Part shown: positions 49,103-64,000 of the stretch, in pieces
How the letters are laid out: each line of letters begins with the position of its first letter
Position numbering within the stretch: the stretch's first letter is position 1
Assembly: GCF_014193515.1 (NCBI RefSeq)
Contig: NZ_BLXX01000007.1
Location: 1-64,000, forward strand
DNA length: 64,000 nucleotides
Direction: 5' to 3'
Source of the DNA: Geomonas silvestris
GTDB lineage: Bacteria; Desulfobacterota; Desulfuromonadia; Geobacterales; Geobacteraceae
Position numbers and translations under genes: made by a program
Notes under the pieces: model-generated
What the model saw: the letters and a program-made list of their open reading frames with translations, nothing else
Told to the model about the DNA's origin: nothing
Database searches by the model: none

Positions 49103-49882
49103 CTAGCCCCTAGCCCCTGCCTCTCCAGGCAGCCTGTCCAAAAGCCTTAAGAGGCCGTCCAGGATGGTGGCGGGGTGCGGCGGGCAGCCGGGGATGTAGA
49201 GATCGACCGGAAGCATGCCGTGCACGCCGTCGTGCGCCTCGGGGGAACCGATGAAGGGGCCGCCGTTGATGGCGCAGGCACCGCAGGCGACAACGAGCTT
49301 CGGTGCCGGGATCGCCTCGTAGGTGAGCAGGAGCGCCTCGCGCATGTTTTCGGTGACCGGGCCGGTGACCCAGAGCCCGTCGGCGTGGCGGGGGCTGGCG
49401 ACGAACTGGATCCCGAAGCGCCCGATGTCCCAGCCGATGGTGGATAGGACGTTGGTGTCGGCCTCGCAGCCGTTGCACCCCCCCGCAACCACCGAGCGGA
49501 ACTTGAGCGAGCGCCCGAAGAGCTTCAGCATCTTCTCCTCGAGGGCCTGGGCCAGGCGGTACTCCTCCCCTTCCTGCGCCACCAGGTCCTCGCGCCGGTT
49601 GGCAGCGAGCCGGTAATCGTTACCGTAGGAGATGCCGCCGTGCGGGCAGGCCTTTTGGCACTCGGCACAGAAGAGGCACTTGCCGAGATCCACCGAGAGA
49701 TTGGGCGTGCAGCTGATGGCACCCGTGGGGCAGACTTCGCGGCAGAGCTGGCAATCGGCGCGGCAGGCGGAGTTATCCAGTTGAGGGAACCCGCGGAAGC
49801 GCTCCGGGATCACCACCGGTTCCTGCGGGTAGCGCATGGTGCGGTGCCCCTGCTTCATGCGGGCGAGTATTGCCTTGAACAT
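49103..49882 (-). CDS. Ehr complex small subunit fused to a ferredoxin domain (HycG/NuoB-like)
   Basis: 259 residues. An N-terminal ferredoxin module has C-R-A-D-C-Q-L-C-R-E-V-C-P and C-L-F-C-A-E-C-Q-K-A-C-P, i.e. two [4Fe-4S] motifs. The second half is the small subunit of complex I-like hydrogenases: G-C-N-G-C-E-A-D, later A-C-G-A-C-A and G-C-P-P-H-P, all four proximal-cluster cysteines kept. It would pass electrons between the ferredoxin domain and the large subunit at the membrane. It is the last gene of the operon, separated from the large-subunit gene by a repeat-bearing 141-base gap. Confidence 0.85.
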   Translation of the reverse strand: MFKAILARMKQGHRTMRYPQEPVVIPERFRGFPQLDNSACRADCQLCREVCPTGAISCTPNLSVDLGKCLFCAECQKACPHGGISYGNDYRLAANRREDLVAQEGEEYRLAQALEEKMLKLFGRSLKFRSVVAGGCNGCEADTNVLSTIGWDIGRFGIQFVASPRHADGLWVTGPVTENMREALLLTYEAIPAPKLVVACGACAINGGPFIGSPEAHDGVHGMLPVDLYIPGCPPHPATILDGLLRLLDRLPGEAGARG

Positions 49883-49907
49883 GACGACTCCTTAAACAAA
49901 ACCGCTC

Positions 49908-49989
49908 ACCACAGAGGACACGGGGCACAGAGGAAACGCAAAAAGACTGACTTGATTTTTCCCCTGTGTTCCTCTGTGTGCTCTGTGGT
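49908..49989. repeat. Dispersed inverted repeat inside the Ehr operon
   Basis: ACCACAGAG (49908-49916) and CTCTGTGGT (49981-49989) are perfect, with further imperfect pairing inward (ACACGGGG / CCCCTGTG). Same type as 4007-4084. It lies between the large- and small-subunit genes. Confidence 0.65.
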
Positions 49990-50023
49990 TAATGCTTTGC
50001 TTTTGCCAAAGGCGAAAAACACC

Positions 50024-51532
50024 TTACAAATCGACCCCGCAGTACGACAAATTGAAGCTCTTGTTGTTGAGCGGAAAATCCGAGATCTGCCCGCCGCGCA
50101 GCGCCATGGCAAGCCCCGGCCAGTTGTGGAAGGACGGGTCGCAGATCTTGTAGCGCTCGAAGCGCCCGCGTCCGTCGGTCAAGGCCACGTGGCAGATCTC
50201 GCCGCGCCACCCCTCGGTCAAGGCCACCGCCAACCGGTCCTCCCCAAGGCTCCCCACCGGGTTCTCGATCCCCCCGCCCGGCAGCTGGCGCAGCTGCTCC
50301 TCGACGAAATCGAGCGATCTCTCGATCTCCAGCCAGCGCACCAGGGTGCGGGCATAGACGTCACCGGCCCGCGCCGTCACCACCGGGATATGCGTCATGT
50401 TGTAGATCCCGTAGGGGTGATCGCGGCGGATGTCCCGGTTCAAACCACTCGCCCTTGCCGCCGGCCCCACCAGCCCCAGCTCCCGCGCGGTCTCCTTGGA
50501 TACCACGCCGGTCCCTTCCAGACGCGCCAAGACCGAGGGCGTGTCCCACAGGAGCTCCACCGCGTTGGTGAGCTCGTCGCGCGCCGCCAGGAGCCGGCGG
50601 CGCAGCTTCTCGACGGTGAGCGCGTCGAGGTCGAAGTTGACCCCGCCCGGGGTCAAAAGCCCCCGCCCGAAGCGGCTGCCGCAGATCTCGGCTGTCAGGT
50701 TCAAAAAGTCGCCGCGGATCCGCCCGCAGTAGGAGGCGGTGGGAAGATATCCCACGTCCCCGGCGATCGCCCCCAGGTCCCCGGTGTGGTTCGCCAGCCG
50801 CTCCAGTTCGGCACCGATGCCGCGCAGGTCGTGGGCGCGCGCGGGGACGCGGGTTCCGGCAAGCGCCTCCAGGCACATCGCGTAGGCGAGCCCGTGACCG
50901 ACGGTGGTGTCGCCGGCCACGGTCTCCATCTGGCGGAAGGTGACCGGGTAGGGGCCGCCTAGAACCAGCTTCTCGACCCCGCGGTGCTGGTAACCCAGGG
51001 AGATCTCCAGGTGCATGACCTCCTCTCCCAGGCACTGGAAGCGGAAGTGCCCCGGCTCGATGATGCCGGCGTGCACCGGGCCGACCGCCACCTCGTGCAC
51101 CTCGCTCCCCTCGACCCGGTAGAAGTCCATGATGCCGATCTTTCCCGGCCCGGTGGGGCAAAAACCGGGGAGTGTGGCCAGGGGCGGGGCGAAGCGGACC
51201 GGCTTCATCCAAGGGTGTCCCTCGAAGATGACGCCGTACTGCTCGGCCATCTCGCGCTCGAAGAGGTGCAGCTGCGGCGCATAGGGGACCAGCGAGGTGA
51301 AGCCGCCGTCGTCGAGCCTGGTATGCAGGACGCCGAGGGTCGCATCGGCCTTCAGGGAGAGCACGCAGTAAAGGGCGAGCCCCTCACCCTCGGGGAGCGC
51401 GAAATAGGAGACGACGCGCCAGCCGTGGTCCAGGGCGGAGAGGATCTCCTCCAGGAAGTGGTCGCCGTGCAGCACCGGGATGTCGCGCCTGGCCAGGGAG
51501 GCGCCGTTTTGCAAAAGTGTCAGCCTGTTCAT
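50024..51532 (-). CDS. Ehr complex large subunit (HycE/NuoCD-like, no Ni ligands)
   Basis: 502 residues: an N-terminal NuoC/HycE-like region (about 1-130, L-F-E-R-E-M-A-E-Q-Y-G-V) fused to a NuoD/HycE-like catalytic-subunit fold. The L1 site reads Q-H-R-G-V-E-K and the L2 site near the C-terminus reads D-P-S-F-H-N-W, so the R-x-C-x2-C and D-P-C-x2-C ligands of [NiFe] hydrogenases are both absent. This is the hallmark of energy-converting hydrogenase-related (Ehr) complexes, which keep the quinone-/ferredoxin-linked fold but cannot bind Ni-Fe. The natural donor and acceptor are unknown. ATG 51532; overlaps the next gene by four bases. Confidence 0.88.
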   Translation of the reverse strand: MNRLTLLQNGASLARRDIPVLHGDHFLEEILSALDHGWRVVSYFALPEGEGLALYCVLSLKADATLGVLHTRLDDGGFTSLVPYAPQLHLFEREMAEQYGVIFEGHPWMKPVRFAPPLATLPGFCPTGPGKIGIMDFYRVEGSEVHEVAVGPVHAGIIEPGHFRFQCLGEEVMHLEISLGYQHRGVEKLVLGGPYPVTFRQMETVAGDTTVGHGLAYAMCLEALAGTRVPARAHDLRGIGAELERLANHTGDLGAIAGDVGYLPTASYCGRIRGDFLNLTAEICGSRFGRGLLTPGGVNFDLDALTVEKLRRRLLAARDELTNAVELLWDTPSVLARLEGTGVVSKETARELGLVGPAARASGLNRDIRRDHPYGIYNMTHIPVVTARAGDVYARTLVRWLEIERSLDFVEEQLRQLPGGGIENPVGSLGEDRLAVALTEGWRGEICHVALTDGRGRFERYKICDPSFHNWPGLAMALRGGQISDFPLNNKSFNLSYCGVDL

Positions 51533-52968
51533 CTGCCACCCTCCAGAAGACCGGCCGCCTGGTGCAACAGCTCCTGCAGCGATTCGGGGAGCCACAATCC
51601 GAGCATGAGGACCAGGGCCATGAGTACCAGCGGAGGCCAGACCGTCGGCGCAGTGTCACGGTAGGGGGTCCGCTCCAGGTCGTCGGGTACTTTACCCAGG
51701 ACCACCGGGATCACCGTCGAGGCCATGCCCATGAAGATCATCGCCAGAAACAAAAGGAAGAGCGCCGCGGTCCAGTAGTTCTGCTGCACGAAGGCGGAGC
51801 TTACGATGGTGAACTCGCTTACGAAGGGGCCAAAGGGGGGCGAGCCGGTGATCGCCAGGAAGGCGGCCAAAAAGAGTGCGCCGGACCACGGGGTACGCCT
51901 CAGGGCGCCGCGCACGAACTGGGTGCTCTTCGAGTTGTAGGCGCGGTGGATGTTGCCGCAGGAAAGAAAGAGGACACCCTTGGTGAGGGCGTTGTTCACC
52001 ATGTGCAAGAGCGCACCGAAGAGGGCCCCCTTCCCCAGCCCGAGGGCGACGGCGATGATCCCGACGTGCTCGACGCTCGAGTAGGCGAGCATCCTCTTGA
52101 AATCGCTTTGCCGGGCCATGAAGACCGCCGCGAACGCCATGGAGAGGAGCCCCATGCCGAGCAGCACCTCCTGGAAGAGTTCGGCCTCGGTGGAGGCGAC
52201 CGCGATCTGATAGACCCTCAACAGCGCCAGGAGCGCGCAGTTGACGAGCCCCCCCGCCAGGAGCGCACCCACCAGTCCCGGCGCCTCGCCGTAGGCGTCG
52301 GGCTTCCAGGTGTGCAGCGGCGCGAGCCCCATCTTGGAGCCGAAGCCGACCAGGAGGAAGATGAAGGCGGCGTGGCGCCAGCCAGCATGCAGGTCGGCGG
52401 CCGTGTCGATCAGGGTCCCCAGAAGAAGCGTCACCTCCTGCTTGGCCACGATGGTCGAATAGGCCAGGAAGAAGAGCCCCAAGAGCGCGATGGCGATCCC
52501 CACCGAGCAGATCAGGAGGTACTTCCAGGTCGCCTCGATGGAGCGGGCGTTGCGGTTGAAGTAGATGAGCGGCGCCATGGTGATGGTGGTCATCTCAAGC
52601 GCGATCCACAAAAGCCCCAGGTGCTGGGCGATCGCCACCAGGGTCATGGCGGAGAGGCAGACCAAGAGCGAGATGCAAAGGACCCGGTTGGGGCGCTTGC
52701 GCCTGAGTTTCAGGTACCCCACCGCGTAATTCGCGCAGACGAAGAAGAGGATGCTGTTGCAGAGGAGGCTCAACTTCCCCAGGGGATCGAGGAAGATCCA
52801 GCGGTCCGGGGACGGAGGGGGCGTCTGGACCAACAGCGTCACGGTGAGGGCCAGGTGCAGGGCGGCGACCACCGGAAGCACCAGGGCGCGCCGGCGGTTA
52901 TCCGGGATGAGCCAGGCGACCAGGGCGCCCAAAAGCGGCAGGAGCACGAAGATCCAGATCAGGTACAT
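51529..52968 (-). CDS. Ehr complex antiporter-like subunit (HyfF/NuoN type)
   Basis: 479 residues, about 14 helices. The functional residues of Mrp/NuoLMN proteins are present: Glu in L-G-L-L-W-I-A-L-E-M-T-T-I and Lys in G-F-G-S-K-M-G-L-A-P-L-H, then D-F-K-R-M-L-A-Y-S-S-V-E-H-V-G-I. Such subunits move H+ or Na+ across the membrane, driven by redox chemistry. The stop overlaps the large-subunit start by four bases, and 1 base separates it from the upstream HyfE-like gene, so they are one operon. Confidence 0.9.
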   Translation of the reverse strand: MYLIWIFVLLPLLGALVAWLIPDNRRRALVLPVVAALHLALTVTLLVQTPPPSPDRWIFLDPLGKLSLLCNSILFFVCANYAVGYLKLRRKRPNRVLCISLLVCLSAMTLVAIAQHLGLLWIALEMTTITMAPLIYFNRNARSIEATWKYLLICSVGIAIALLGLFFLAYSTIVAKQEVTLLLGTLIDTAADLHAGWRHAAFIFLLVGFGSKMGLAPLHTWKPDAYGEAPGLVGALLAGGLVNCALLALLRVYQIAVASTEAELFQEVLLGMGLLSMAFAAVFMARQSDFKRMLAYSSVEHVGIIAVALGLGKGALFGALLHMVNNALTKGVLFLSCGNIHRAYNSKSTQFVRGALRRTPWSGALFLAAFLAITGSPPFGPFVSEFTIVSSAFVQQNYWTAALFLLFLAMIFMGMASTVIPVVLGKVPDDLERTPYRDTAPTVWPPLVLMALVLMLGLWLPESLQELLHQAAGLLEGGR

Positions 52969-52969
52969 C

Positions 52970-53611
52970 TCATTCCTCCCGCAGGGTGCTCAGGCGCGAG
53001 GTGTCCAGTGAGGAGAACTCGCGGCTGATGTGGTTGATGACGATCCCCATGACGAAGACGCCGACCAGGAGGTCGAGAAGCGCCCCGGCCTCGACCATGA
53101 CCGGCATCGCCTCGGCCAGGAGCAGGCCGAAGATGAAGATACCGTTCTCCATGAGGAGGTAGCCGATCACCTGGCTGATCGCCTTGCGCCGCCCCATGAG
53201 CACCAGGAAACCGCACATGAGGGTTGCCAGCGAGGCCGGCACGAAGAGGAGCCCCTCGTGCTCGGGGGCCAGGGGGAGCCTGGAGGCGAAGATGAAGGCG
53301 AGCGCGGTGAAGATGGCGCCCAGGACCAGGGAGGGGATGTAGCCTATGAACGGCTCGAACTCGCGCTGGATGTCGGCCTTGAGGATGGCGCGCACGATGA
53401 GGATGGGGATCGCCGCCCCTTTCACCAGGATGATGCCGGCCACGATGGCGACCAGGTGCCAGGAGAAGGGGTGCACCAGCGCGGGGAGTACGCCCAGGAC
53501 CACCCCCTGCAGCGCGACGGCGCGCACCGAGAAGGCGAGCCGGCTGGTGCCGAGCACGGCGAAATTGAGCAAGAGGCAGAGGACCAGGAGTTGATCGGCC
53601 AGGGCAGTCAT
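52970..53611 (-). CDS. Ehr complex HyfE-like (NuoK-related) membrane subunit
   Basis: 213 residues with six membrane segments. P-F-I-G-Y-I-P-S-L-V-L-G and the conserved acidic helix V-I-G-Y-L-L-M-E-N-G-I-F-I-F-G match the HyfE/hydrogenase-4 component E family, the NuoK-like element that links antiporter subunits to the peripheral arm. Start ATG 53611; 4 bases separate it from the HyfC-like stop. Third gene from the end of the operon. Confidence 0.87.
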   Translation of the reverse strand: MTALADQLLVLCLLLNFAVLGTSRLAFSVRAVALQGVVLGVLPALVHPFSWHLVAIVAGIILVKGAAIPILIVRAILKADIQREFEPFIGYIPSLVLGAIFTALAFIFASRLPLAPEHEGLLFVPASLATLMCGFLVLMGRRKAISQVIGYLLMENGIFIFGLLLAEAMPVMVEAGALLDLLVGVFVMGIVINHISREFSSLDTSRLSTLREE

Positions 53612-53615
53612 CGGA

Positions 53616-54524
53616 TCACCTCACCACAAGAACCAGGGAAAAGGCCGTCAGGATCAGGGCCGCCACCAGAAGCTGCGGCACCCGGATAAGCCTCAGGCGC
53701 GCCATCACTGACTCCACCACCCCCACCGCGACGCTTAGGGCAAGCATCCCCGCGAGGAAGACGAGCCAGTCCGCGAGGCTCGAGCCGGTGGTAAAGGGGA
53801 GCGCCACGTTCACGAAGAGCGCGCCCAACAGGAAGAGCTTTAAGGCGGCACCGTAGAGGATGCAGCCGAAATAGGGACCGGAATGGTCCAGGACCATCAC
53901 CTCGTGGATCATGGTCAATTCGAGGTGCGTGTTGGGGTCGTCGAAGGGGATGCGGCTGTTCTCGGCCAGGAGCACCACGAAGAGCCCGGCCAGCATGAGG
54001 ATGAGCGCGGCGCCGGTCCCGAGCCAGACCGAGAGGTCCAGGTGGTTCAGCATCGGGGTGAGCGAGAGCGTTCCGGAGAGTCGGGTCAGGGTGATCAGGG
54101 CGAAGAAGAGGGTCGGCTCGGCCAGGCAGGCGAAGCTCACCTCGCGGGCCGCCCCCATCCCCTCGAAACTCGAGCCGGTATCGAGGGCGGCGATGGTGGT
54201 GAAGAAGCGCCCCAGGGCGAAGAGGTAGGCGAAAAGGACCAGGTCGCCGTCGAAGGAGATGGGGGCTGTGTGCCTGCCGAGCGGGATCAACAGGCCGGCG
54301 CACAGGGTGGCGGCCAGGGTCACCGCCGGTCCGGCGCGGAAGATCCAGCTGGTGGTTTCACTTATGACCACCCCTTTTCTGAAGAGCCGGGCCAGGTCGT
54401 AGTAGGGCTGCAGGAACGGAGCCCCTACCCTGCCGGCGAAGGCCGCCTTGGTCTTGCCGATCACCCCGAGCAGCAAGGGGGGCAAACCGAGCGCGATCAC
54501 GATATGCACCAGGATGTCGATCAT
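53616..54524 (-). CDS. Ehr complex HyfC/NuoH-like membrane subunit
   Basis: 302 residues, eight helices. Q-P-Y-Y-D-L-A-R-L-F-R-K-G, A-E-N-S-R-I-P-F-D-D-P-N-T-H-L-E-L-T-M-I-H-E and L-D-H-S-G-P identify the HycD/HyfC/NuoH family, whose acidic loop contacts the large subunit and, in complex I, helps form the quinone site. Start at ATG 54524 behind GGGAGAACGAG. A 144-base gap with a heptamer repeat separates it from the upstream antiporter gene. Confidence 0.9.
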   Translation of the reverse strand: MIDILVHIVIALGLPPLLLGVIGKTKAAFAGRVGAPFLQPYYDLARLFRKGVVISETTSWIFRAGPAVTLAATLCAGLLIPLGRHTAPISFDGDLVLFAYLFALGRFFTTIAALDTGSSFEGMGAAREVSFACLAEPTLFFALITLTRLSGTLSLTPMLNHLDLSVWLGTGAALILMLAGLFVVLLAENSRIPFDDPNTHLELTMIHEVMVLDHSGPYFGCILYGAALKLFLLGALFVNVALPFTTGSSLADWLVFLAGMLALSVAVGVVESVMARLRLIRVPQLLVAALILTAFSLVLVVR

Positions 54525-54616
54525 CTCGTTCTCCCGAAATCTCAAAATCCTTCAGATACTTGTTGCAGCAAAAGGCCGGAGGCCGGTTTTCAGCCGCAGG
54601 TTCCCGGTTTTTCAGC

Positions 54617-54644
54617 CCCTGAGCCCTGAGCCCTGAGCCCTGAG
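54617..54644. repeat. Four tandem CCCTGAG heptamers
   Basis: Exact 7-bp units at 54617, 54624, 54631 and 54638 in the spacer between the HyfB- and HyfC-like genes, followed by CTTACC/CTCACC-type short repeats. Copy number could vary between strains. Confidence 0.85.
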
Positions 54645-54668
54645 TCCCCAGTCCTGCCTTACCTTACC

Positions 54669-56648
54669 TCACCTCACCCAGAGCATCAGTGCGAGCAGGG
54701 TGATGAAGATGTAGATGATGTACAGGTGCACCTCGCCGTGCTGCACCCTTCTCAGGTACCTGAAGGCGATCCCCACCAATCCCAGCGCCGGGAGGATGAG
54801 CCGCTCGAGCAGGGTCTCCTCCGGGAGGTAGCCGGCTCGCGCCGCACCGGGGACCAGACCGCGCGGAGCCCGGGTGCTGGTCCGGGTGCGCACCACTCCT
54901 GAGCTGAAGCTTCCGAAGAGCAGACCGAACGAGCTCCCGGTGTACTCCATGCGGGGAGTGGGCGCCAAGTAGCCGCACCCCCAGGTCGGGCCCGTTTCGG
55001 CCGGGAGAACCTGCTGGCGCCGACGCAACAGCCAGGAGAGCCCCAGCGCCAGGACCAGCAGAACGCCCCCGGCGGCGGCAAACCAGAGCAGGCTGTAGGG
55101 GAGCCCGGCAAAGCCGGCGGCCTGGGGAACCACGGTCGCCAGAACCGGCTGGACCAGGGTGAGGAACAGCACGGGGCAGAGCCCGCCGAGCAGGCAGAGC
55201 ACCCCCAGGACGGCCATCGGGAAGAGCATGGCAGCCGGCGCCTCATGTCCGTGGGCCGCCGCCTCGCTGCGTGGCGCCCCGAGGAAGGTGATGCCGTAGA
55301 GTTTCACGAAGGAGATCGCCGCGACCCCCCCGACCAGCGCCAGGACCGGCACGCCGAGGCCCAGGTAGGGCAGCGGGGCGCGTGCCTCACCGAGGAAGCC
55401 GAGGTAGAGCAGGAATTCGCTGGCGAAGCCGTTAAACGGGGGAAGGCCGCAGATCGCCACGGCGCCCACCAGGGAGAGGAGTGCGGTCCGCGGCAGGCGC
55501 TTCCCAAGCCCCCCCATGAGATCGAGGTCGCGGGTGCCGGTGGCATGCAGCACGCTCCCGGCGCAGAAGAAGAGCAGCGGCTTGAACAGGCTGTGGTTCA
55601 AGAGGTGGAACAGGGCGCCGGCGAGCCCCAGGTAGGCGAGCCGAGGATTTCCGGTTTCCTGGCCGATGAGCGCCATGCCGATTCCCGCGGCGATAAGGCC
55701 CAGGTTCTCGATGCTCGAGTAGGCCAAGAGCCGCTTGAAATCCTTCTGGACCGCGGCAATGGCGATGCCGAGGAGCGCGGAGACGAGCCCCAGCACGAGG
55801 ATGGTCCCTCCCCACCAAAGCGGCCGCTCGCCGAAGAAGGAGAGCACCCGCAAAAGGCCGTAGATCCCCATCTTGAGCATCACCCCGGAAAGCAGAGCGG
55901 AGACGTGGCTCGGGGCGTTGGCGTGCGCGGCGGGGAGCCAGATGTGCAGCGGCATGAGCCCGGCCTTGGAGCCGAAGCCGACCAGGGCCGCGAGAAAGAC
56001 AACCGTTGCCGCCCCCCCGGCCAGCGCGAGCGAGCCGGTCTCGGGAAACAGAAAGCTCCCGGTTACCATCCTCAGTTCGGAGAAGAGCACGAAGAGGCCG
56101 GCCACCCCCACGTGGCTCGCCACCAGGTACACGGTTGCCGCGCCTCGCACCTCTGCCGATTCGTGCTCGGGGAGCAGCAGGAAGAACCCGGAGAGCGCCA
56201 TCACCTCCCAGGCCATGAGCAGCAGCGGCCCGCTATGGGCCAGCACCACCAGCGCCATCGAGGCGCTCAGGAGGCCGTAGAAGAAGGTGAGGGACGGGCC
56301 GGTCGAGGGGCGGCTGGCGTTTGGCCAGTAACCGAGGGCGTAGAGGGAACCTAAGGGGAAGACCAGGAAGATCGGGATCAGGAACAGCAGGGAGAGCGGA
56401 TCGAAGGATAGTTCGGTAGGGCCGAAGGGGAGACCCCAGTTGAAAACGTAGCGGGAGGTTTTGCCGGCAACCAGCAGTGAGATCAGGGCCGGGAGAGCCA
56501 GGGCGGAAGCGGCGACAGCCAAGAGGCTGGCCAACTTCTGCCCCGATTCCCCCGGTCGCAAAAGCAACCCGGGGACCCCGGAGAGTGCGGCGAGCAGCAC
56601 CGCGCCCAGTACGACGAGGGATGGGTCTTGCAGCAGACTGTCAAACAT
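54669..56648 (-). CDS. Ehr complex antiporter-like subunit 2 (HyfB/NuoL type)
   Basis: 659 residues, about 16 helices. Key residues: Glu in L-L-M-A-W-E-V-M-A-L-S, Lys in G-F-G-S-K-A-G-L-M-P-L-H-I-W-L-P-x-A-H, and the D-F-K-R-L-L-A-Y-S-S-I-E-N cluster. The C-terminus has the extra W-G-C-G-Y-L-x-P-T-P-R-M segment of HyfB/HycC proteins. The start is ATG 56648 behind AAAGGTCC; a much longer frame upstream overlaps the paralogue in another frame and is spurious. It is paralogous to the gene directly upstream. Confidence 0.9.
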   Translation of the reverse strand: MFDSLLQDPSLVVLGAVLLAALSGVPGLLLRPGESGQKLASLLAVAASALALPALISLLVAGKTSRYVFNWGLPFGPTELSFDPLSLLFLIPIFLVFPLGSLYALGYWPNASRPSTGPSLTFFYGLLSASMALVVLAHSGPLLLMAWEVMALSGFFLLLPEHESAEVRGAATVYLVASHVGVAGLFVLFSELRMVTGSFLFPETGSLALAGGAATVVFLAALVGFGSKAGLMPLHIWLPAAHANAPSHVSALLSGVMLKMGIYGLLRVLSFFGERPLWWGGTILVLGLVSALLGIAIAAVQKDFKRLLAYSSIENLGLIAAGIGMALIGQETGNPRLAYLGLAGALFHLLNHSLFKPLLFFCAGSVLHATGTRDLDLMGGLGKRLPRTALLSLVGAVAICGLPPFNGFASEFLLYLGFLGEARAPLPYLGLGVPVLALVGGVAAISFVKLYGITFLGAPRSEAAAHGHEAPAAMLFPMAVLGVLCLLGGLCPVLFLTLVQPVLATVVPQAAGFAGLPYSLLWFAAAGGVLLVLALGLSWLLRRRQQVLPAETGPTWGCGYLAPTPRMEYTGSSFGLLFGSFSSGVVRTRTSTRAPRGLVPGAARAGYLPEETLLERLILPALGLVGIAFRYLRRVQHGEVHLYIIYIFITLLALMLWVR

Positions 56649-56779
56649 CAAGTGGACCTTTCTTTTCGAGCGGTTCCCGGCAGCGGGACAGGAATCGTAA
56701 GTAATAGCACAATCCGCGCCCCATGAAAAGAAACAAACATGCAGGAAATCACTTACAGGACAGATTTCCCGGTTTCCCT

Positions 56780-58777
56780 TTAGCGCGTGGTCAGGATGAA
56801 CAGGACGACCAGCGTCAAAAAAGTGTAGACGATGTACAGGTTGAGCTTGCCGTGCTGCAGGTGGCGCACCGGCGCGCTCTTTTCGTAGAGGTACTCCAAA
56901 AGCGGCAGGAAGAGGCGCTCCAGGGCGGTCTCGGGGAGGTGGCTGCGGTACGCTGCCGGTCCCGGGAAGGATCCCGCCGGATCGGTCCGGTGCACCTCGG
57001 GGCGCAGCACCACGCCGAACCAGGCAACCAGGAGCGACCCGAAGGAGCTTGCGCTGTACTGCATGCGCGGCGTCGGTTTCAGGTAGCCGCACCCCCAGGT
57101 GCGCGAGGTTGCAGCCGCGCGGCCGGTCCGCCTCCGCAGCCAGAGGGCCGCGCCGGCCGCGAGCATGAGGAGCAGCACGGCGAGCAGGGTGATCCAGGTA
57201 AAGGGGACCATGGGGACCAGCGCCTGCTGGACAAACCCACCGCGGTAGGCCGCGAGGGCGTTCTCCAGCGGGCGGGCCACGCAGATGGGCGCCACGCCGA
57301 TCAGCACGCAGACCAGGGCGAGGAGCGCCTGCGCCCCCAGCATGCTGGCCGGGGGATCACCTGTGCCCACATGCTCCGGACTCCTCGGTTCCCCCAGGAA
57401 CACCACCCCGTACACCTTGACGAAGCAGGCGACCGCCAGGCCGCCGATGAGTGCCAGCACCGGGACGGCCAGCACCGGGAGCGCGCCCATGAGGCCCGGT
57501 GAGCTCTTCAGCGAGGTAAAGCCGGCGAGGTAGATCATGAGCTCGCTGACAAAGCCGTTTAGGGGCGGAAGCCCGCAGATCGCCAGCGCGCCAGTCAGGA
57601 AGAAGAGCCCGGTCCTCGGGAGGCGCCGCCCTACCCCGCCCAGCACCTCGATCTCCCGGGTTCCCGCGGCCTGGATCACCGCCCCGGCCCCCAAAAAGAG
57701 CAGGGCCTTGAAGGTCGCGTGGTTCAGCACGTGCAAAAGCGCCCCAGCCAGCCCCAGGGTCGCCAGGACGGGCGACGCCAGGCTCTGCCCCAAAAGCGCG
57801 CACCCCAGCCCGATCATGATGATCCCGATGTTCTCGATGCTGTGGTAGGCAAGCAGCCGCTTCAGGTCGTGCTGCCCGATGGCGAAGGCGACGCCGATCA
57901 CCCCGGAGATGGCGCCCAGGATGAGCACGGTACCCCCCCACCAGGGGGGCGGCGTTGCGAAACAGGAGAAGATGCGCACCATGCCGTAGATGCCGACCTT
58001 GAGGACCACCCCGGAAAGGACCGCCGAGATGTGGCTGGGGGCGTTGGCGTGGGCCGACGGGAGCCAGACGTGCAGCGGCATCACCCCTGCCTTGAGGCCG
58101 AAGCCGATCAGGGCGCAGAGGAAGATGGCGCTTGCCAGCCCCCCCTGGGCCGGCAGCGACCCGGGCGCGGGAAAGAGGTAGCTGCCGGTCAGCGAGGCGA
58201 TGAGCGAGACCATGGCGAAGAGGACCAGCACCCCCAGGTGGGCGGTGACCAGGTAGAGGATGCCGGCGTCGCGCACCTCCGGCTTCTCGTCCTCGGTGCT
58301 GAGGGCGAACCAGGCTGCGAGCGCCATGATCTCCCAGACCACCAGGAAGAGCACCAGGTGGCGCACCAGCAAAAGCGCGCTGAGCGAGGCGGCCAAAAGC
58401 CCCAGGAAGAAGGTGACCCGTGCGGCAGTTTCGGGGTGACGGTCGGCGGGCCAGTAGCCGAGGGCGAAGAGGGCGCTCGCCCCGGTGACCAGGAATACCG
58501 GGATGAGAAACCAGGCGGAGAGTGCATCGATGCCGAGGCTGCCGGGGCCGAAGGGGAGTCCGGAGATGAGGGCGAAGGTGACCGGTGCCGGCGAGGTGAG
58601 GGACCAGAGTGCGGCGGCGCTCCCGGCACAGGATCCGGTCAGCATCAGGAGAACTGAGAAGCGCTGGGCGGCGGCAGAGCTGCGGGCGAAGAGCAGCGGA
58701 AGCCCGGAGGCTCCCTGGCAGGCGACGGCAAGGCAAAACAGCACGAAGCAGTTGATCGCCTGGCCGCCCGCTGCCAT
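56780..58777 (-). CDS. Ehr complex antiporter-like subunit 3 (second HyfB/NuoL type)
   Basis: 665 residues, built like the previous subunit: W-E-I-M-A-L-A-A-W for the Glu helix, G-F-G-L-K-A-G-V-M-P-L-H-V-W-L-P-S-A-H-A for the Lys helix (Ser to Leu before the Lys), D-L-K-R-L-L-A-Y-H-S-I-E-N and the W-G-C-G-Y-L-K-P-T-P-R-M tail. Two tandem HyfB paralogues plus one HyfF give three ion-pump modules, the number found in complex I. It is the second gene of the operon; its start lies one base past the stop of the HTH-EIIA gene. Confidence 0.9.
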   Translation of the reverse strand: MAAGGQAINCFVLFCLAVACQGASGLPLLFARSSAAAQRFSVLLMLTGSCAGSAAALWSLTSPAPVTFALISGLPFGPGSLGIDALSAWFLIPVFLVTGASALFALGYWPADRHPETAARVTFFLGLLAASLSALLLVRHLVLFLVVWEIMALAAWFALSTEDEKPEVRDAGILYLVTAHLGVLVLFAMVSLIASLTGSYLFPAPGSLPAQGGLASAIFLCALIGFGLKAGVMPLHVWLPSAHANAPSHISAVLSGVVLKVGIYGMVRIFSCFATPPPWWGGTVLILGAISGVIGVAFAIGQHDLKRLLAYHSIENIGIIMIGLGCALLGQSLASPVLATLGLAGALLHVLNHATFKALLFLGAGAVIQAAGTREIEVLGGVGRRLPRTGLFFLTGALAICGLPPLNGFVSELMIYLAGFTSLKSSPGLMGALPVLAVPVLALIGGLAVACFVKVYGVVFLGEPRSPEHVGTGDPPASMLGAQALLALVCVLIGVAPICVARPLENALAAYRGGFVQQALVPMVPFTWITLLAVLLLMLAAGAALWLRRRTGRAAATSRTWGCGYLKPTPRMQYSASSFGSLLVAWFGVVLRPEVHRTDPAGSFPGPAAYRSHLPETALERLFLPLLEYLYEKSAPVRHLQHGKLNLYIVYTFLTLVVLFILTTR

Positions 58778-58778
58778 G

Positions 58779-59456
58779 TCAGCTCCTGATCCCGCGTTCG
58801 AAGTGCCGGGCCGCTTCCAGGACGCCCTCGGGGTCGCAGGCTCTCAGCACCGTGTCGTGGAACTGCGGGTCGTGCAGCGCGTAGGCAAGCCGGGAAAGCA
58901 GGTGCAGATGCACCTTCACGGTAGGGCTTGTGAGCAGGAACAGGATGTGCACCGGCTGGCCGTCCAGTGCCGCGAAATCGATCGGGTTGGCGAGGTAGCA
59001 GAGGGTGACGGTCGGCGCAGGACGGTTCTGCAAAAGGATCGGGTTTCTCACGTGCGGGATGGCGATCCCCCCGCCGATTGCCGTGGTCCCCAGCGCCTCC
59101 CGGGCCAAAAGGACCTGGAGCAGGAAATCCGGGTCCACCTGGGGCGGCAGCTTCAAAAGGTTCACCACACTGCGCAAAACGCTCAGCTTGTCCTCTCCCG
59201 GCACGCCGCAGTGGATGCCGCCGGCCTCGAGCGCCTCGCTGAGCGTCGGATAGTGCATATCGGCCTCTGCCGCCTCGAAGAGCTCGGGGGGCATGGTGAT
59301 GCCGTTCTCGGTGGCCCACTCGAGGAGGTCGATCCGGTTGATCCGGTAGCTCCCGCGCACTAAGGTGGCGGCCAGCTTCTCCTTCTTGATCCACTTAAGG
59401 ACGGTGTTCTCGTCTATTTTGAGAAGTGCGGCCACTTCCGAGGCTTTCAACAGCAT
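58779..59456 (-). CDS. HTH-PTS EIIA fusion protein heading the Ehr operon
   Basis: 225 residues. Residues about 1-55 are an excisionase/MerR-like helix-turn-helix (L-K-A-S-E-V-A-A-L-L-K-I-D-E-N-T-V, I-N-R-I-D-L-L-E-W). About 75-220 are a PTS EIIA type 2 domain with the phosphoacceptor motif G-G-G-I-A-I-P-H. With no sugar PTS genes near, it is more likely a regulatory (PTS-Ntr-like) protein. As first gene of the Ehr operon it may sense phosphorylation state and regulate the operon, possibly through the CTAAC/GTTAG palindrome just upstream. ATG 59456. Confidence 0.85.
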   Translation of the reverse strand: MLLKASEVAALLKIDENTVLKWIKKEKLAATLVRGSYRINRIDLLEWATENGITMPPELFEAAEADMHYPTLSEALEAGGIHCGVPGEDKLSVLRSVVNLLKLPPQVDPDFLLQVLLAREALGTTAIGGGIAIPHVRNPILLQNRPAPTVTLCYLANPIDFAALDGQPVHILFLLTSPTVKVHLHLLSRLAYALHDPQFHDTVLRACDPEGVLEAARHFERGIRS

Positions 59457-59708: not shown

Positions 59709-60077
59709 CTAGCCGAAGTGCGAGCGCCGCGGCGGCAGGGAGCGCTCCCGCGGCAACTGGTGGGCGATCAGGCTGCGCAGCCTGAGTCTCGTGTCCTGGT
59801 CCAGGTTCACGAACCTGACACAGGCCATCCCGTACCCCAGGTGCACCAGGCGCGTCATGAAGCGCAGCGACGTGTTGTTGTCCTCGCGGTACAGGGCGAG
59901 CGAGCAGCGCTCCCCCGGCGACATGGCGGGCTCCGCGCCCTCCAGGGTCACCAGGGCCCCGGCCAGCGAGATGTTCTCCAGTCGGGCACGGTAGAGTTCG
60001 TCGCGATATACCAGCAGCCCCTCGGCATCCATGGCAACGCGGGGAAAGGTCCTTTTCTCCAGAACCGGTCCTGGCAT
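59709..60077 (-). CDS. PilZ-domain cyclic di-GMP-binding protein
   Basis: 122 residues, a stand-alone PilZ domain. The binding residues are in place: the basic motif E-K-R-T-F-P-R-V (R-x3-R spacing) near the start and N-I-S-L-A-G-A (D/N-x-S-x2-G) about 30 residues later. Later R-L-V-H-L-G-Y-G-M-A-C-V-R-F-V-N-L matches the barrel end. It acts as a c-di-GMP receptor, partner unknown. ATG 60077 follows AAGGGAGCAGATC. Single gene with its own terminator, between the Ehr and respiratory clusters. Confidence 0.88.
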   Translation of the reverse strand: MPGPVLEKRTFPRVAMDAEGLLVYRDELYRARLENISLAGALVTLEGAEPAMSPGERCSLALYREDNNTSLRFMTRLVHLGYGMACVRFVNLDQDTRLRLRSLIAHQLPRERSLPPRRSHFG

Positions 60078-60391: not shown

Positions 60392-61912
60392 CTACTTCTT
60401 GTGGGCCTCACCGCCCGGGACGTCCTGGCCGCCGGCGGAATGGCAGTCCGAGCAGTTGGTCTTCATGATCTCGTCGCCGATGTCAACCGGATGCACGAAG
60501 CCGTTGGGCTTGGTCCCCTCGGGGATGTTCTCCTGCTTCTGGCTCAAGACGGTGTGGCACAGGTTGCAGTCCTTCGAGATGATGCGCCCCTCGGCGTTCT
60601 TGTGCTTGCCGTCGTGGCAGCGGAAGCACCCCGGGGTGTAGAAGTGGCCGATGTTGTTTGGATAGGTGTTCCAGGAAACCTTCATCTGCGGGAAGAAGTT
60701 CCTGCCGTAGATATCCTGGACCTCGGTGACCGCCTTGGCGATCTCCTTGGCCTTGGCCTGCGCCACCTGCGGGTAGTTCTTCTGGTAGTAGGCCGGGATC
60801 TCCTTGGCGATGGTCGCCTTGGCTTCCTCGGTCGTCTTGTAGGGCCTGGTCAGCACTTCGACCGCCACCTTCTTCATGTAGGGGAGCGACTGGTCGATGT
60901 GCCCAGACACGAAGTTCTCATCCATCTCGACGCCGGGGGCGCGGTAGATGTGGGTCGGACGGTTGTGGCAGTCGGTGCAGTCCATCTCACGCTGCTTGGA
61001 CTTCTCGATCTCCGCCTTGGTGAGCGGCTTCTCGGTGTCCATGAACTCGGTGATCTTGCCGTCTCTCCCCTCGACCCTGATGTAGGGGATGTTCATGCGT
61101 TTCTTGTCGGTGGCGATATAGGTAACCTTCTGGCCGATGTGCCAGTGGATCCCCTTGGAGTGGGCGCTCTTCGGGGTGCCGCCGATGTTGATCAGCATGT
61201 TGATCTCGCGCGGCGAGTTCTGCTCGTTGGGCGCGTAGTGATAGAAGACCTTCTGACGGCCGGCGTAGAACTTCTCGGGCCAGTGGCAGTGCTCGCAGGT
61301 GTCGCGCGCCGGGCGCAGGTTGTCGATCGGGGTCTCGATGGTCTCCGGGTAGGTGTGGAAGGCAACTGCGTAGAGCTGGCGCATGCCGGAGAGTTTCGCC
61401 TTGACGTACCAGGCGGCACCGGGGCCGACGTGGCACTCGACGCACTTCACCTTGGCGTGCGGAGAGTTGGCCCAGGCGGTGTGCTCCGGCGACATCACCA
61501 CGTGGCAGAGCTCGCCGCAGAAGGTGGTGGACTCGGTGAACTCGAAACCCTTGAGCGAAGCTACCGAGACGAGCAGCACGAACCCGACGCTGGCGATGAC
61601 GAAAAAGATGAACATGTGACGCTTGTGCGGGTCGTTGAAGTCGACCCGGGGGAACGGCGGGATGTGCTCCTCTGCCTCTTTACGCTTCTTGTTGCGCACC
61701 AGGTAGGCGCCCAGCGGCACCAGCAGCAGGCCGAAAATGAGCATCCCCGGGAACAGGAAGTAGGTCATCAGACCGAGGTAGGGTTTCTCCACTCCAGTTA
61801 TCCCCTCATAGGACAGGAAGCCTATGATGAGACATGCTGCTGTCAGAGCCAGGACCATGCCGGCGAGGCTGATCATGTTCCAGGCGTAGCCAGCATACTT
61901 TCTCAGTGCCAT
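60392..61912 (-). CDS. imcH: Seven-heme inner-membrane NapC/NirT-type cytochrome, ImcH-like
   Basis: 506 residues. Three N-terminal membrane helices (about 12-34, 47-70, 100-120) precede a periplasmic part with seven heme sites: C-G-E-L-C-H near 132 (unusual CX3CH spacing), then C-V-E-C-H, C-E-H-C-H, C-T-D-C-H, C-F-R-C-H, C-N-L-C-H and C-S-D-C-H. Helix count, heme number and NapC/NirT-like middle match ImcH, the Geobacter menaquinol oxidase needed for electron transfer to high-potential acceptors such as Fe(III) and electrodes; the symbol rests on architecture, not alignment. ATG 61912 follows AAGGAGAACAC. A clear promoter lies upstream. Confidence 0.7.
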   Translation of the reverse strand: MALRKYAGYAWNMISLAGMVLALTAACLIIGFLSYEGITGVEKPYLGLMTYFLFPGMLIFGLLLVPLGAYLVRNKKRKEAEEHIPPFPRVDFNDPHKRHMFIFFVIASVGFVLLVSVASLKGFEFTESTTFCGELCHVVMSPEHTAWANSPHAKVKCVECHVGPGAAWYVKAKLSGMRQLYAVAFHTYPETIETPIDNLRPARDTCEHCHWPEKFYAGRQKVFYHYAPNEQNSPREINMLINIGGTPKSAHSKGIHWHIGQKVTYIATDKKRMNIPYIRVEGRDGKITEFMDTEKPLTKAEIEKSKQREMDCTDCHNRPTHIYRAPGVEMDENFVSGHIDQSLPYMKKVAVEVLTRPYKTTEEAKATIAKEIPAYYQKNYPQVAQAKAKEIAKAVTEVQDIYGRNFFPQMKVSWNTYPNNIGHFYTPGCFRCHDGKHKNAEGRIISKDCNLCHTVLSQKQENIPEGTKPNGFVHPVDIGDEIMKTNCSDCHSAGGQDVPGGEAHKK

Positions 61913-61957
61913 GTGTTCTCCTTCAAAACGTGTATCTGGGGTCTAAAAAATCGCAAT

Positions 61958-61986
61958 AATTTACTATGTGTAAACAGTTTTGTCAA
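61958..61986 (-). promoter_or_regulatory. Sigma-70 promoter of the ImcH-like gene
   Basis: On the minus strand TTGACA, 17-base spacer, TAAATT. The spacer contains TGTTTACACA, similar to the palindrome upstream of the OmpW gene. Confidence 0.6.
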
Positions 61987-62171
61987 AGGAAAGAACGTTA
62001 AAATTTCCTACCCCGAAATAAAACGCAAATCGGTGAGAAATCCGGGTGATACCGTGACCTTGGCCTTGCAAAATGAACTTTTTCTGGTAGCTTCAAACCG
62101 GCGTTATATTAAAGCTAAACATGGTGCCGACCGAAAGAAGAGAACACGCCAGAAGGCGAGGAGGCTGTCCA

Positions 62172-62723
62172 ATGAAGAGTCACGTTTGGCGACCGCTCTA
62201 CGTGGTGCTGCTGGTCGTCGGTACCGTGTTGCTGGTGCGCAAGGTCCTGGTGCCCGCCGACTTCGGCATCGGCAGCCGCGGCTACATGTACGGCTGGCAC
62301 CGTCCCAGCAACGAGGCCGAGTGGCAGAAGGTGACCGTTAAGTACCGGACCGCCGAGTACTGCAAGGATTGTCACGCCGACAAGTACCAGGAGATCAAGC
62401 AATCTCCCCATGCCGCCATCAGCTGCGAAAACTGTCACGGCCCCGCGCTGAAGCACCCCGACGATCCCCGGTCCCTCACCATCGACCGCAGCCGCGAACT
62501 CTGCGCCCGCTGCCACTTCCGGCTGGAGTACCCGACCAGCGGCCGGGGCAAGATCCGCGGGATCGATCCGAAGACCCACAACCCGGGACTTGAGTGCGTC
62601 ACCTGCCACTGGCCCCACGACCCGCGCAAGCAGGGGCACACCAAGAAAAGCGCCGCGGCTTCGGGCCTGCCGGGGCGGCCAGCATCGATCGGGCACAAGG
62701 GGGGCGGCCATGATATCGCGTAG
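62172..62723 (+). CDS. Tetraheme c-type cytochrome, membrane-anchored
   Basis: 183 residues. An N-terminal anchor or uncleaved signal (about 8-24) is followed by four heme motifs: C-K-D-C-H, C-E-N-C-H, C-A-R-C-H and C-V-T-C-H, with S-P-H-A-A-I-S supplying likely distal His. It is the cytochrome of a cytochrome/FeS/NrfD quinol-oxidoreductase operon, like the Cbc-type complexes of Geobacter. ATG 62172 follows GAGGAGGCTGTCC; its end overlaps the next gene by 14 bases. Basic Gly/His-rich tail. Confidence 0.88.
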   Translation: MKSHVWRPLYVVLLVVGTVLLVRKVLVPADFGIGSRGYMYGWHRPSNEAEWQKVTVKYRTAEYCKDCHADKYQEIKQSPHAAISCENCHGPALKHPDDPRSLTIDRSRELCARCHFRLEYPTSGRGKIRGIDPKTHNPGLECVTCHWPHDPRKQGHTKKSAAASGLPGRPASIGHKGGGHDIA

Positions 62724-63495
62724 GAACTTCTGCAAAAAGTCGCTCCTGGTGGCCGGCGGTCTCGCCATTCTGCTCTCGGCACTCGAGCTTTTCGACCCCC
62801 GCCGCCTCGAGGCCGAAAAGGGGGACGGCAAGAAGGTGCGCTGGGTCTTTCTGGTGGATACCCACAAGTGCGTGGGGTGCGGCTTCTGCGTCAAGGCGTG
62901 CAAGATCGAGAACGAGGTCCCCTACGACGCCAACGTGACCCGGACCTGGGTGGAACGCTACGTGGTCACCAAGGACGGCAAGACGCACATCGACTCCCCC
63001 AAGGGGGCGCGCGACGGCTTCGAGGACACCCGGATCGACATCGGCGAAGGGAAATTCCAGGAGATCAAGAACGAGGAGATCAGCAAGGCGTTCTTCGTCC
63101 CGAAGCTCTGCAACCAGTGCGACAATCCCCCCTGCGTCCAGGTCTGCCCGGTGGGCGCCACCTACCAGACCGCGGACGGCGTGGTGCTGGTGGATCGGAA
63201 GTGGTGCATCGGCTGCGGCTACTGCGTGATGGGGTGCCCCTACGGGGTGCGCTTCTTCCACCCGGTGTACCACGTCGCCGAGAAGTGCAACTTCTGCTAC
63301 CACCGGATCTCCCAGGGGATGCAGACCGCCTGCGTGGACGCCTGCCCCTTCGGTGCCCGCAAGGTCGGCAACATCCGTGATCCCCAAGACCCGGTCACCA
63401 AGGTGATCACCACCGATCGGGTCAACGTCCTCAAGGAGGAGTACGGGACCACGCCGCAGGTCTTCTACCTTGGGCTCACCAAGGAGGTGAAATAG
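62710..63495 (+). CDS. Tat-exported ferredoxin subunit (DmsB/NrfC-like)
   Basis: 261 residues. The N-terminus S-R-R-N-F-C-K-K is a twin-arginine signal with hydrophobic segment. Four [4Fe-4S] sites follow: C-V-G-C-G-F-C-V-K-A-C, C-N-Q-C-D-N-P-P-C-V-Q-V-C-P, C-I-G-C-G-Y-C-V-M-G-C-P and C-N-F-C-Y..C-V-D-A-C-P. The order is that of NrfC/HybA-type subunits that carry electrons from an NrfD-type quinol oxidase. ATG 62710 lies within the cytochrome gene (14-base overlap). AAGGAGGTGAAATAG before the stop gives the ribosome-binding site for the next gene. Confidence 0.92.
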   Translation: MISRRNFCKKSLLVAGGLAILLSALELFDPRRLEAEKGDGKKVRWVFLVDTHKCVGCGFCVKACKIENEVPYDANVTRTWVERYVVTKDGKTHIDSPKGARDGFEDTRIDIGEGKFQEIKNEEISKAFFVPKLCNQCDNPPCVQVCPVGATYQTADGVVLVDRKWCIGCGYCVMGCPYGVRFFHPVYHVAEKCNFCYHRISQGMQTACVDACPFGARKVGNIRDPQDPVTKVITTDRVNVLKEEYGTTPQVFYLGLTKEVK

Positions 63496-63497
63496 CC

Positions 63498-64000
63498 ATG
63501 GTGCACGGAGAAGCCTGGACCCTCAAGGAGTTTTTCACCTACCCCAACGAGTACATCTACTGGACCATCCAGATCGTCATGTACCCGTTCATGACCGGCC
63601 TCGTCGCCGGGGCTTTCGTACTCTCCTCGCTGTACCACGTCTTCGGCGTGACGCAGCTCAAGGGGATCGCCCGCTTCTCGCTGGTGTTCTCCTTCGCCCT
63701 CTTGCCGGTCGCCATGCTCCCCCTGATGCTGCACCTGCAGCAGCCGCAGCGCGGCATCGAGGTGATGATGACGCCGCACTTCACCAGCGCCATCGCCGCC
63801 TTCGGCATCGTCTTCTCCACCTACGGGATGATCGTCGCCTCCGAGCTCTGGTTCGTCTACCGCAAGCACTTCGTGGAGAGCGCGCTCAGGCTGAGGGCCA
63901 TCCCCCAGCGCAGCGTTCCCGAAAACCTCTGGCACCTGCTCTACTCGGCGCTCACCCTGGGGGCGACCGACATCAGCCACGAGGCGCTCGAGGCGGACGA
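63498..64000 (+). CDS. NrfD-family quinol-oxidising membrane subunit (partial at window end)
   Basis: Open from ATG 63498 (AAGGAGGTGAAATAGCC upstream) to the window end, 167 codons seen. It shows W-T-I-Q-I-V-M-Y-P-F-M-T-G-L-V-A-G-A-F-V followed by three further helices, matching the NrfD/PsrC start, where the N-terminal helices form the quinol site. NrfD proteins are usually 300-400 residues, so more than half is missing. Two bases separate it from the ferredoxin gene, completing a cytochrome/FeS/NrfD operon. Confidence 0.88.
   Translation, partial: MVHGEAWTLKEFFTYPNEYIYWTIQIVMYPFMTGLVAGAFVLSSLYHVFGVTQLKGIARFSLVFSFALLPVAMLPLMLHLQQPQRGIEVMMTPHFTSAIAAFGIVFSTYGMIVASELWFVYRKHFVESALRLRAIPQRSVPENLWHLLYSALTLGATDISHEALEAD

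Follow-up and report, generated by a model that had tools for sequence, protein, structure and literature searches.

The energy-converting hydrogenase-related (Ehr) complex is said to have been named by Coppi in 2005, about two decades ago. In Geobacter sulfurreducens, it is encoded by GSU0739-0745 (PMC7894505 and PMC8691401) and is described as having no NiFe-binding centre (PMC13194489), and its role was stated to be 'never investigated' (PMC7894505). Ehr complexes without Ni ligands are also described in PMC6349859 and PMC10284858, and Ehr was listed among possible pH-homeostasis factors in methanotrophs (PMC6688271). The names in use are EhrA-1, C, L and S (PMC7894505, PMC8691401), ehrA-2 and ehrB (PMC13194489) and, in Methylacidiphilum, ehrABCDLS (PMC6688271); no known substrate is given in the accessible text of the published accounts. 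Here, we describe a minus-strand operon of eight genes in the window, i.e. the 64,000-nt stretch of DNA analysed (Geomonas silvestris contig NZ_BLXX01000007.1, positions 1 to 64,000). The operon occupies positions 49103-59456, and its gene content, assigned by Pfam and NCBIfam profile searches, matches that of Ehr (transcription order: HTH-EIIA, A1, A2, B, C, D, L (EhrL) and S (EhrS)). G. sulfurreducens Ehr has the same subunit types and names and is likewise NiFe-less, a likeness judged by published gene names and types, not sequences. By its sequence, the window complex is a further member of the known Ehr family, and the system itself is not new. We propose, at a probability of roughly 60%, that Ehr is a relative of group 4 hydrogenases and complex I without Ni-Fe that would exchange electrons with ferredoxin and couple this, running forwards or backwards, to the translocation of ions.

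Escherichia coli Hyf has nearly the same gene order (hyfB-C-D-E-F-G-H-I) as the window operon, but HyfH and HyfI are encoded by separate genes, whereas EhrS combines both parts, and the large subunits HycE and HyfG carry both CxxC motifs and a C-terminal tail, neither of which is present in EhrL. The membrane-bound hydrogenase (MBH) of Pyrococcus (MbhJ/MbhL, 6CFW) shares the proximal-cluster spacing and a Glu equivalent to E21 with Ehr but, unlike Ehr, has Ni-Fe and reduces protons (PMC7684303). The membrane-bound sulfane sulfur reductase (MBS) of Pyrococcus resembles Ehr in having no Ni-Fe site and no quinone residues, but its Glu is absent, its cluster loop is shortened and two ligand Cys are kept (PMC7684303). 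Complex I (NuoB/CD/H/K/L/M/N/I) has its fold and antiporter modules in common with Ehr, whereas the Ehr operon has no NADH module and the quinone His/Tyr are replaced. With regard to the traits that mark these groups, EhrL has neither the two Ni-Fe-binding CxxC motifs of group 4 [NiFe] hydrogenases nor the quinone-binding His38/Tyr87 (Nqo4 numbering) of complex I, and EhrS does not have the three-Cys proximal [4Fe-4S] site with a shortened loop that marks MBS. In a 29-row tree, Ehr and the related Ehr2 type fell on one branch (100/100) apart from the complex I and NiFe references, although the tree contained six outgroup rows, its three NiFe rows did not form one branch and long-branch warnings apply. 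The name Ehr, the loss of the Ni-Fe ligands and the intact small subunit, all three given in an earlier note on this DNA, are upheld by the subunit families, the alignments and this tree.

The ligand sites were analysed in an alignment of 53 distinct large-subunit sequences, of which 42 (that of the window among them) were Ehr orthologues, 5 were Ehr2 paralogues and 6 were references (E. coli HycE, HyfG and NuoCD and three paralogues from the same genome); the 47 Ehr-type rows were gathered by whole-protein search. A second set of 60 rows contained the window sequence and 59 of the best 80 loci, mostly from other phyla, which came from the peptide patterns IEPGHFRF and [TV]EGWRGE[IV], so that conservation at 158-165 and 439-446, but not at the other residues, partly reflects how the rows were chosen. 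In the window EhrL, the first ligand pair (CGIC) is represented by A206-G-D-T209 and the second (DPCYSC) by N494-L-S-Y-C-G499. Among the 47 Ehr-type rows, position 206 is A, G or S, position 209 is T or S, and positions 496 and 499 are S and G, respectively, in every row. The 60 rows have A (55), S (4) or C (1) at 206 and T (50), S (7), A (2) or V (1) at 209, and again S and G in all rows at 496 and 499. The four Cys are lost in 47/47 Ehr-type rows and none of the 60 rows has all four, the C at 206 in one row being the only Cys at an aligned ligand place. As a positive control, the genome's own group-4 NiFe-type large subunit (L067, encoded at G000:C2:407734-408879) retains LCSLC and DPCISC, i.e. 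both CxxC motifs, in the same alignment.

The earlier note was correct that the large subunit has no Ni-Fe ligands, but misplaced the lost sites at DPSFHNW and RGVEK. Residues 465-471 (DPSFHNW) align with AATYANW of HycE, and HRGVEK (183-188) aligns with HRGMEK of HycE. The residues H183 and E187 are shared with HycE, NuoCD and the NiFe-type subunit of the same genome, so the ligand sites lie in neither of the two motifs. EhrL and the other Ehr-type rows, read to the stop codon, terminate at DL and have no C-terminal tail of the HycE/HyfG type, which is removed on maturation; since the genome's own NiFe-type subunit is also tailless, the missing tail is not diagnostic alone. The confident AlphaFold2 model of EhrL (mean predicted local distance difference test score, 92.1; minimum at residues 153-156) has HycE of E. 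coli (7z0s_E; TM-scores, 0.87/0.82) as its closest PDB match, and HycE is the top PDB match by sequence too.

The residues G207, D208, N490, K491, S492, F493, S496, Y497, G499, D501 and L502 are invariant in the 60 rows, and E159 is kept in 47/47 rows of the alignment based on whole-protein search. Ratios of nonsynonymous to synonymous substitution rates (dN/dS), calculated for one pair, namely the window and L037 (its nearest relative among the loci, with ~94% identity in EhrL), were 0.096 for EIIA, 0.180 for A1, 0.135 for A2, 0.046 for B, 0.035 for C, 0.054 for D, 0.083 for L and 0.090 for S. Given the strict conservation of the replacement residues across phyla and the dN/dS values of 0.035-0.18, the former Ni-Fe site looks re-used, not decayed. 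In a 2026 study of evolved KN400 lineages, Ehr was called non-functional and drifting, and missense mutations in ehrA-2 and ehrB were found in the evolved lineages (PMC13194489). Conservation and dN/dS argue against this view: that Ehr is a non-functional relic, i.e. a hydrogenase drifting after the loss of its metal, is most improbable given the low ratios across all eight genes, the invariance of the replacement residues over many phyla and the presence of relatives on at least 556 stretches in genome_contigs. An active-site disulfide between C489 and C498 was considered and rejected as a general feature: N occurs at 489 in 3 of the 60 rows, including the window, A occurs at 498 in one row, and the five Ehr2 rows have S at 498.

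The nature of the re-used pocket bears on the electron acceptor. Counted along HMMER alignments to Nqo4 and MbhL, I158 and G207 of EhrL occupy the places of His38 and Tyr87 of Thermus thermophilus Nqo4, respectively, and E159 that of Glu21 of Pyrococcus MbhL. According to PMC7684303, H38 and Y87 are the quinone headgroup residues and E21 is key for proton reduction; equivalents of all three are absent in MBS, the proximal cluster of which has three Cys. In EhrS, the Cys spacing of the proximal cluster (CNGCE) is of the hydrogenase type found in MBH and HycG, as seen in the alignments to MbhJ and HycG and in the list of Cys. An archaeal MBS-like sulfane-sulfur (polysulfide) reductase with catalysis at the proximal [4Fe-4S] cluster would fit a ferredoxin-linked relative that is also devoid of Nqo4 H38/Y87, as is the case for MBS (PMC7684303), but appears quite improbable for Ehr: the E21 equivalent lost in MBS is retained (E159), the cluster spacing is that of MBH and HycG whereas the MBS loop is shortened and leaves one Fe without Cys, and MBS keeps two Ni-ligand Cys whereas Ehr has a single one in one of the 60 rows.

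Quinone markers were searched for in 50 Ehr-bearing genomes (61 first requested), using MqnA/D (PF02621), MenB and UbiE/MenG (TIGR01934). MqnA/D was found in 24 genomes and MenB above cut-off in 5 others, leaving 21 with neither; UbiE/MenG was above cut-off in 32 genomes, 25 of which belong to the 29 genomes that have a menaquinone marker and 7 to the other 21. Fourteen genomes, including Treponema, Spirochaetales, two Lentisphaerota and three Planctomycetota, had none of the three markers, one of them being borderline (G235; 147 vs 158 bits). The same pocket is present in 13 of these 14, the remaining locus (L121) not being in the 60-row set. Riflemargulisbacteria with Ehr are also described as having no full quinone pathway, yet quinone was discussed as a possible acceptor there (PMC6349859).

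A complex-I-like ferredoxin:menaquinone oxidoreductase, which would reduce menaquinone at the EhrL/EhrS/B interface and pump protons, has several points in its favour. Geobacterales respire with quinones, NuoH-like and complex-I-type subunits are present, 29 of the 50 genomes have an MqnA/D or MenB marker, and an NrfD / Fe-S / cytochrome c module, whole or in part, is located near Ehr both in the window and in 6 of the 30 loci from Geobacterales (L037-L066). We nevertheless regard it as unlikely, given I158 and G207 in place of the quinone-binding His and Tyr, the 14 of 50 genomes (all metagenome-assembled genomes (MAGs)) without the three markers, 13 of which share the pocket, and the failure to find the NrfD module at 24 of 30 Geobacterales loci, for which stretches of up to 20 kb were inspected. 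Because the quinone His/Tyr are replaced, the proton-transfer Glu is kept and 14/50 genomes have no markers, a universal quinone acceptor of the complex I type appears doubtful, and the marker test provides moderate evidence against it. Of the two couples offered in the earlier note, ferredoxin-to-quinone is thus weakened, and a different acceptor is favoured.

Ferredoxin would be the natural partner of Ehr, by homology with MBH and Ech, because EhrS carries two ferredoxin motifs of four Cys each (C40/44/47/51 and C69/72/75/79) and is not accompanied by an NADH module in the operon. No NADH-oxidising module (NuoEFG) was found in the operon, and both NuoD-type subunits of the genome are encoded elsewhere. 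The two ferredoxin-type [4Fe-4S] motifs are fused to the NuoB-like domain, in agreement with the earlier note, which had described a small subunit that keeps its cluster and carries extra ferredoxin motifs. The first motif of EhrS (49103-49882) has the form C-x3-C-x2-C-x3-C rather than the usual C-x2-C start, and L165 is alike by eye. At one locus (G093/L164), the Ehr genes start ~1.8 kb downstream of two same-strand genes that encode ferredoxin-oxidoreductase domains (POR_N/TPP and POR).

A scan of 100 co-directional neighbouring proteins, hand-picked from 260 scripted neighbour open reading frames (ORFs) and pooled, did not yield a conserved metabolic partner, and this idea was dropped: the commonest family was MFS_1 (5/100), twelve others, including EIIA_2, matched 2/100 each and the rest matched at most 1. 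A formate-linked complex (FDH-Ehr), in which Ehr would receive electrons from formate dehydrogenase, was put forward for Riflemargulisbacteria/Saganbacteria (PMC6349859) and suggested for G. sulfurreducens, in which all Ehr subunits were reported to reach higher abundance in cultures grown on formate than in those containing hydrogen (PMC7894505). However, formate dehydrogenase is absent from the families matching at least 2 of the 100 neighbours, and a complex that has no Ni-Fe site is not expected to release H2 from formate, which is the role suggested in PMC7894505; we consider this arrangement improbable.

HTH-EIIA, the first gene of the operon and one on which the earlier note was silent, encodes a helix-turn-helix (HTH) domain and an EIIA domain of the phosphotransferase system (PTS). 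The product matched PF00359 at 2.6e-23, with a predicted phospho-acceptor, His135, in GIAIPHVRNP; this His of the IPH motif, which we take to be the expected phospho-site of EIIA, is present in 34 of 35 aligned HTH-EIIA rows. The EIIA_2 domain and IPH motif are shared with E. coli PtsN (EIIA-Ntr), whereas the N-terminal DNA-binding domain and the linkage to an Ehr antiporter gene are added in HTH-EIIA. The score against the NCBIfam PtsN equivalog TIGR01419 (62.6 bits; cut-off, 138.7) indicates an EIIA-like protein and not PtsN itself. The gene is not among the Ehr subunit names that the accessible text of the published accounts gives for G. sulfurreducens and Methylacidiphilum.

In a survey of the order (58 genomes, including that of the window; E-values of <=1e-20 for HTH-EIIA and <=1e-60 for EhrL), HTH-EIIA and EhrL were found in 42 and 52 genomes, respectively. 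All 42 carriers of HTH-EIIA were EhrL-positive, and all six EhrL-negative genomes were without HTH-EIIA. The gene lies within ~15 kb of the EhrL or Ehr2 large-subunit gene in 40 of the carriers (coordinates compared by hand) and on another contig in the other two, which are drafts of 160 and 280 contigs. A sample of 148 genomes from the phylum contained full-length HTH-EIIA with at least 45% identity (a line drawn post hoc) in 14 genomes, 4 of them shared with the order survey, and all 14 were among the 29 EhrL-positive genomes (hypergeometric, 5e-12, kinship ignored). Since seven further genomes carry full-length versions with 30-38% identity and no EhrL, the tie to Ehr belongs to the HTH-EIIA subfamily and not to the domain architecture. 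Among 50 informative loci of mixed phyla (those of 80 genome_contigs loci with enough upstream sequence and an A-type antiporter), an HTH-EIIA profile match was found in or beside the operon in 33, with the HTH part covered in all 33. HTH-EIIA is specifically tied to Ehr, a link that is new as far as searched: among the titles and passages listed from the open-access literature, nothing connected EIIA/PtsN with Ehr.

HTH-EIIA frequently abuts or overlaps the antiporter gene, and one base separates it from A1 in the window. The EIIA-A1 pair behaves as one separable cassette, because it is opposite in strand to the remaining Ehr genes in six Geobacterales loci (L044, L047, L050, L052, L064 and L066). 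HTH-EIIA is found beside a distant Ehr2 in L059 and between the Ehr and Ehr2 operons in L061. The genome has one HPr match, EI and EIIA-Man genes in the same stretch as rpoN, and two EIIA_2 matches, i.e. the HTH-EIIA of the operon and one other. Unphosphorylated E. coli PtsN inhibits the K+/H+ antiporter YcgO (PMC11808508), which is a precedent for the action of an EIIA on cation/proton antiport. When one mismatch was allowed, the sigma-54 promoter motif TGGCACN5TTGC occurred 4 times in the window (4.47 expected), in no case upstream of the operon. An HTH-EIIA variant with 25-32% identity and the motif A(L/M)PH is present in six Verrucomicrobiota loci (L092, L100, L106, L109, L116 and L123), lying inside the operon between A1 and B in the first three, and a Planctomycetales MAG (L080) has a tandem pair of HTH-EIIA genes ahead of the Ehr operon.

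Gene content, ligand loss, the conserved replaced pocket, purifying selection, the EIIA linkage and the EI/HPr genes can be read directly from the sequence. For the ferredoxin partner, ion pumping, the substrate class and the effect of EIIA, we infer the following scheme. A chain made up of the two [4Fe-4S] clusters of EhrS and the proximal [4Fe-4S] cluster would carry electrons between ferredoxin and a substrate, which would occupy the pocket of EhrL that Ni-Fe has vacated; Glu159 and Asp208 would probably donate protons there. Protons/H2 are probably not the substrate, and neither is a quinone bound in the manner of complex I. Conformational change would drive the antiporter modules D, A2 and A1, and HTH-EIIA probably links operon expression, or the activity of A1, to the EI/HPr phosphorelay fed by phosphoenolpyruvate (PEP). 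In its full form, which we regard as possible but less likely than not, Ehr would be a widespread ferredoxin-coupled pump with a non-quinone/non-proton acceptor in a re-purposed pocket (E159, D208, N490-K-S-F-N, S496-Y-x-G-x-D-L), and in many lineages HTH-EIIA would act as a phospho-switch on the adjacent antiporter gene, reading the PEP-fed phosphorelay.

Several observations weigh against parts of this proposal. Ehr cannot depend on HTH-EIIA, because the gene is missing from 10 of 52 Ehr carriers in the order survey, from 15 of 29 carriers in the phylum sample and from 17 of the 50 mixed-phylum loci. The ferredoxin link consists of homology and the single G093/L164 locus, in which the intervening ORF has no family match, and of the families matching at least 2 of the 100 neighbours, none represents a ferredoxin oxidoreductase or another redox partner. 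The 14 marker-less genomes are all MAGs by their record titles, with completeness not reported, and the UbiE/MenG marker misses some genomes, since 4 of the 29 genomes that have a menaquinone marker scored below its cut-off. In the genus of the window, an NrfD-type module, an Fe-S protein and a cytochrome beside Ehr fit a quinone link. The name Ehr is also used more widely, because PMC3569383, in which most Ehr complexes have no Ni ligands, includes one Ehr-named complex with all four Cys. The EIIA tie and the quinone-marker test are leads, not proof of mechanism. With the strictly conserved pocket signature, its presence even where no quinone biosynthesis is detectable and a specific phospho-sensor partner, the question of the acceptor becomes testable, and the EIIA link, if true, would connect carbon status (PEP) with low-potential electron flow and ion pumping.

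The features of the operon are listed in Table 1. Inspection of start codons favoured TTG 56651 or ATG 56648 for A2, and GTG 57092 was considered unlikely since it overlaps A1. The NCBIfam match of C (PRK11492) is a hydrogenase 4 membrane subunit, and its PF00420 match scored 25.6 bits against a cut-off of 26.1. Among the matches listed, the top-scoring named relative of EhrL in genome_contigs was that of Geomonas limicola (94%).

Table 1. Coordinates of the Ehr genes and of the former ligand places in the window
Feature	Position	Strand	Basis
HTH_17 + PTS EIIA_2 protein (HTH-EIIA), 225 aa	58779..59456	-	PF12728, PF00359
Antiporter-type A1, HyfB-like, 665 aa	56780..58777	-	PF00361; top NCBIfam match hydrogenase 4 subunit B, below cut-off
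Antiporter-type A2, HyfB-like	54669..56651	-	PF00361; 47.8% identity to A1
NuoH/HyfC-like membrane anchor B, 302 aa from ATG 54524	53616..54524	-	PF00146
HyfE-like C, C-terminal part NuoK-like	52970..53611	-	NCBIfam PRK11492, PF00420, both below cut-off
Antiporter-type D, HyfF-like, 479 aa	51529..52968	-	PF00361; 33% to E. coli HyfF
Large subunit EhrL, 502 aa, NuoC + NuoD domains	50024..51532	-	PF00329, PF00346
EhrL codons 206-209 (A-G-D-T), first CxxC Ni-ligand place	50906..50917	-	alignment; coordinates from reading frame
EhrL codons 491-502 (K-S-F-N-L-S-Y-C-G-V-D-L), second CxxC place and protein end	50027..50062	-	alignment; coordinates from reading frame
Small subunit EhrS, 259 aa, 2x[4Fe-4S] ferredoxin part + NuoB-like part	49103..49882	-	PF01058, Fer4 families

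Three antiporter modules 'as in complex I' had been described in the earlier note; the count holds (three Proton_antipo_M domains), but the set is nearer to that of E. coli Hyf. Among the E. coli references, A1 and A2 are nearest to HyfB and D is nearest to HyfF. The columns that we take to be the transmembrane helix (TM) 5 Glu, TM7 Lys and TM12 Glu are kept in A1, A2 and D, and the presumed TM8 Lys column is kept in A1 and A2 and is Asn in D, likewise in HyfF. In the 50 mixed-phylum loci, HyfB-like + HyfF-like counts by BLAST were 1+1 (33 loci), 2+1 (9), 1+0 (5), 2+0 (2) and 2+2 (1), in which zeros may be misses and the 2+2 locus represents two tandem Ehr sets; a set of three antiporters is thus one of several Ehr forms. 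In L038, an ORF at 11436-12608 between A2 and B resembles an integrase-type transposase by eye. The Ehr2 type (L057-L061) has ~37% identity to Ehr and the same pocket signature except for S in place of C498; the Ehr2 genes C and D are separated by other ORFs in L057 and L060, one of which, in L060, is transposase-like by eye.

Upstream of Ehr, the region 60392-64000 of the window (extending to G000:C7:64745; locus L070) encodes a NapC/cytochrome-c-type protein, followed by a divergent module of cytochrome c, Fe-S and NrfD proteins. In L038, L039 and L040, the NrfD module separates A1 from A2 and has the opposite orientation. As an obligate partner, this module was rejected: it was found in the genus of the window and close relatives (L037-L041), in L137 and in L057 (beside Ehr2), but not in 24 of the 30 Geobacterales loci; we treat it as a lead only. 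A small ORF at 59709-60077 of the window, which separates the Ehr operon from the gene for the NapC-like cytochrome, is PilZ-like by eye and has a counterpart with 90% identity in L037.

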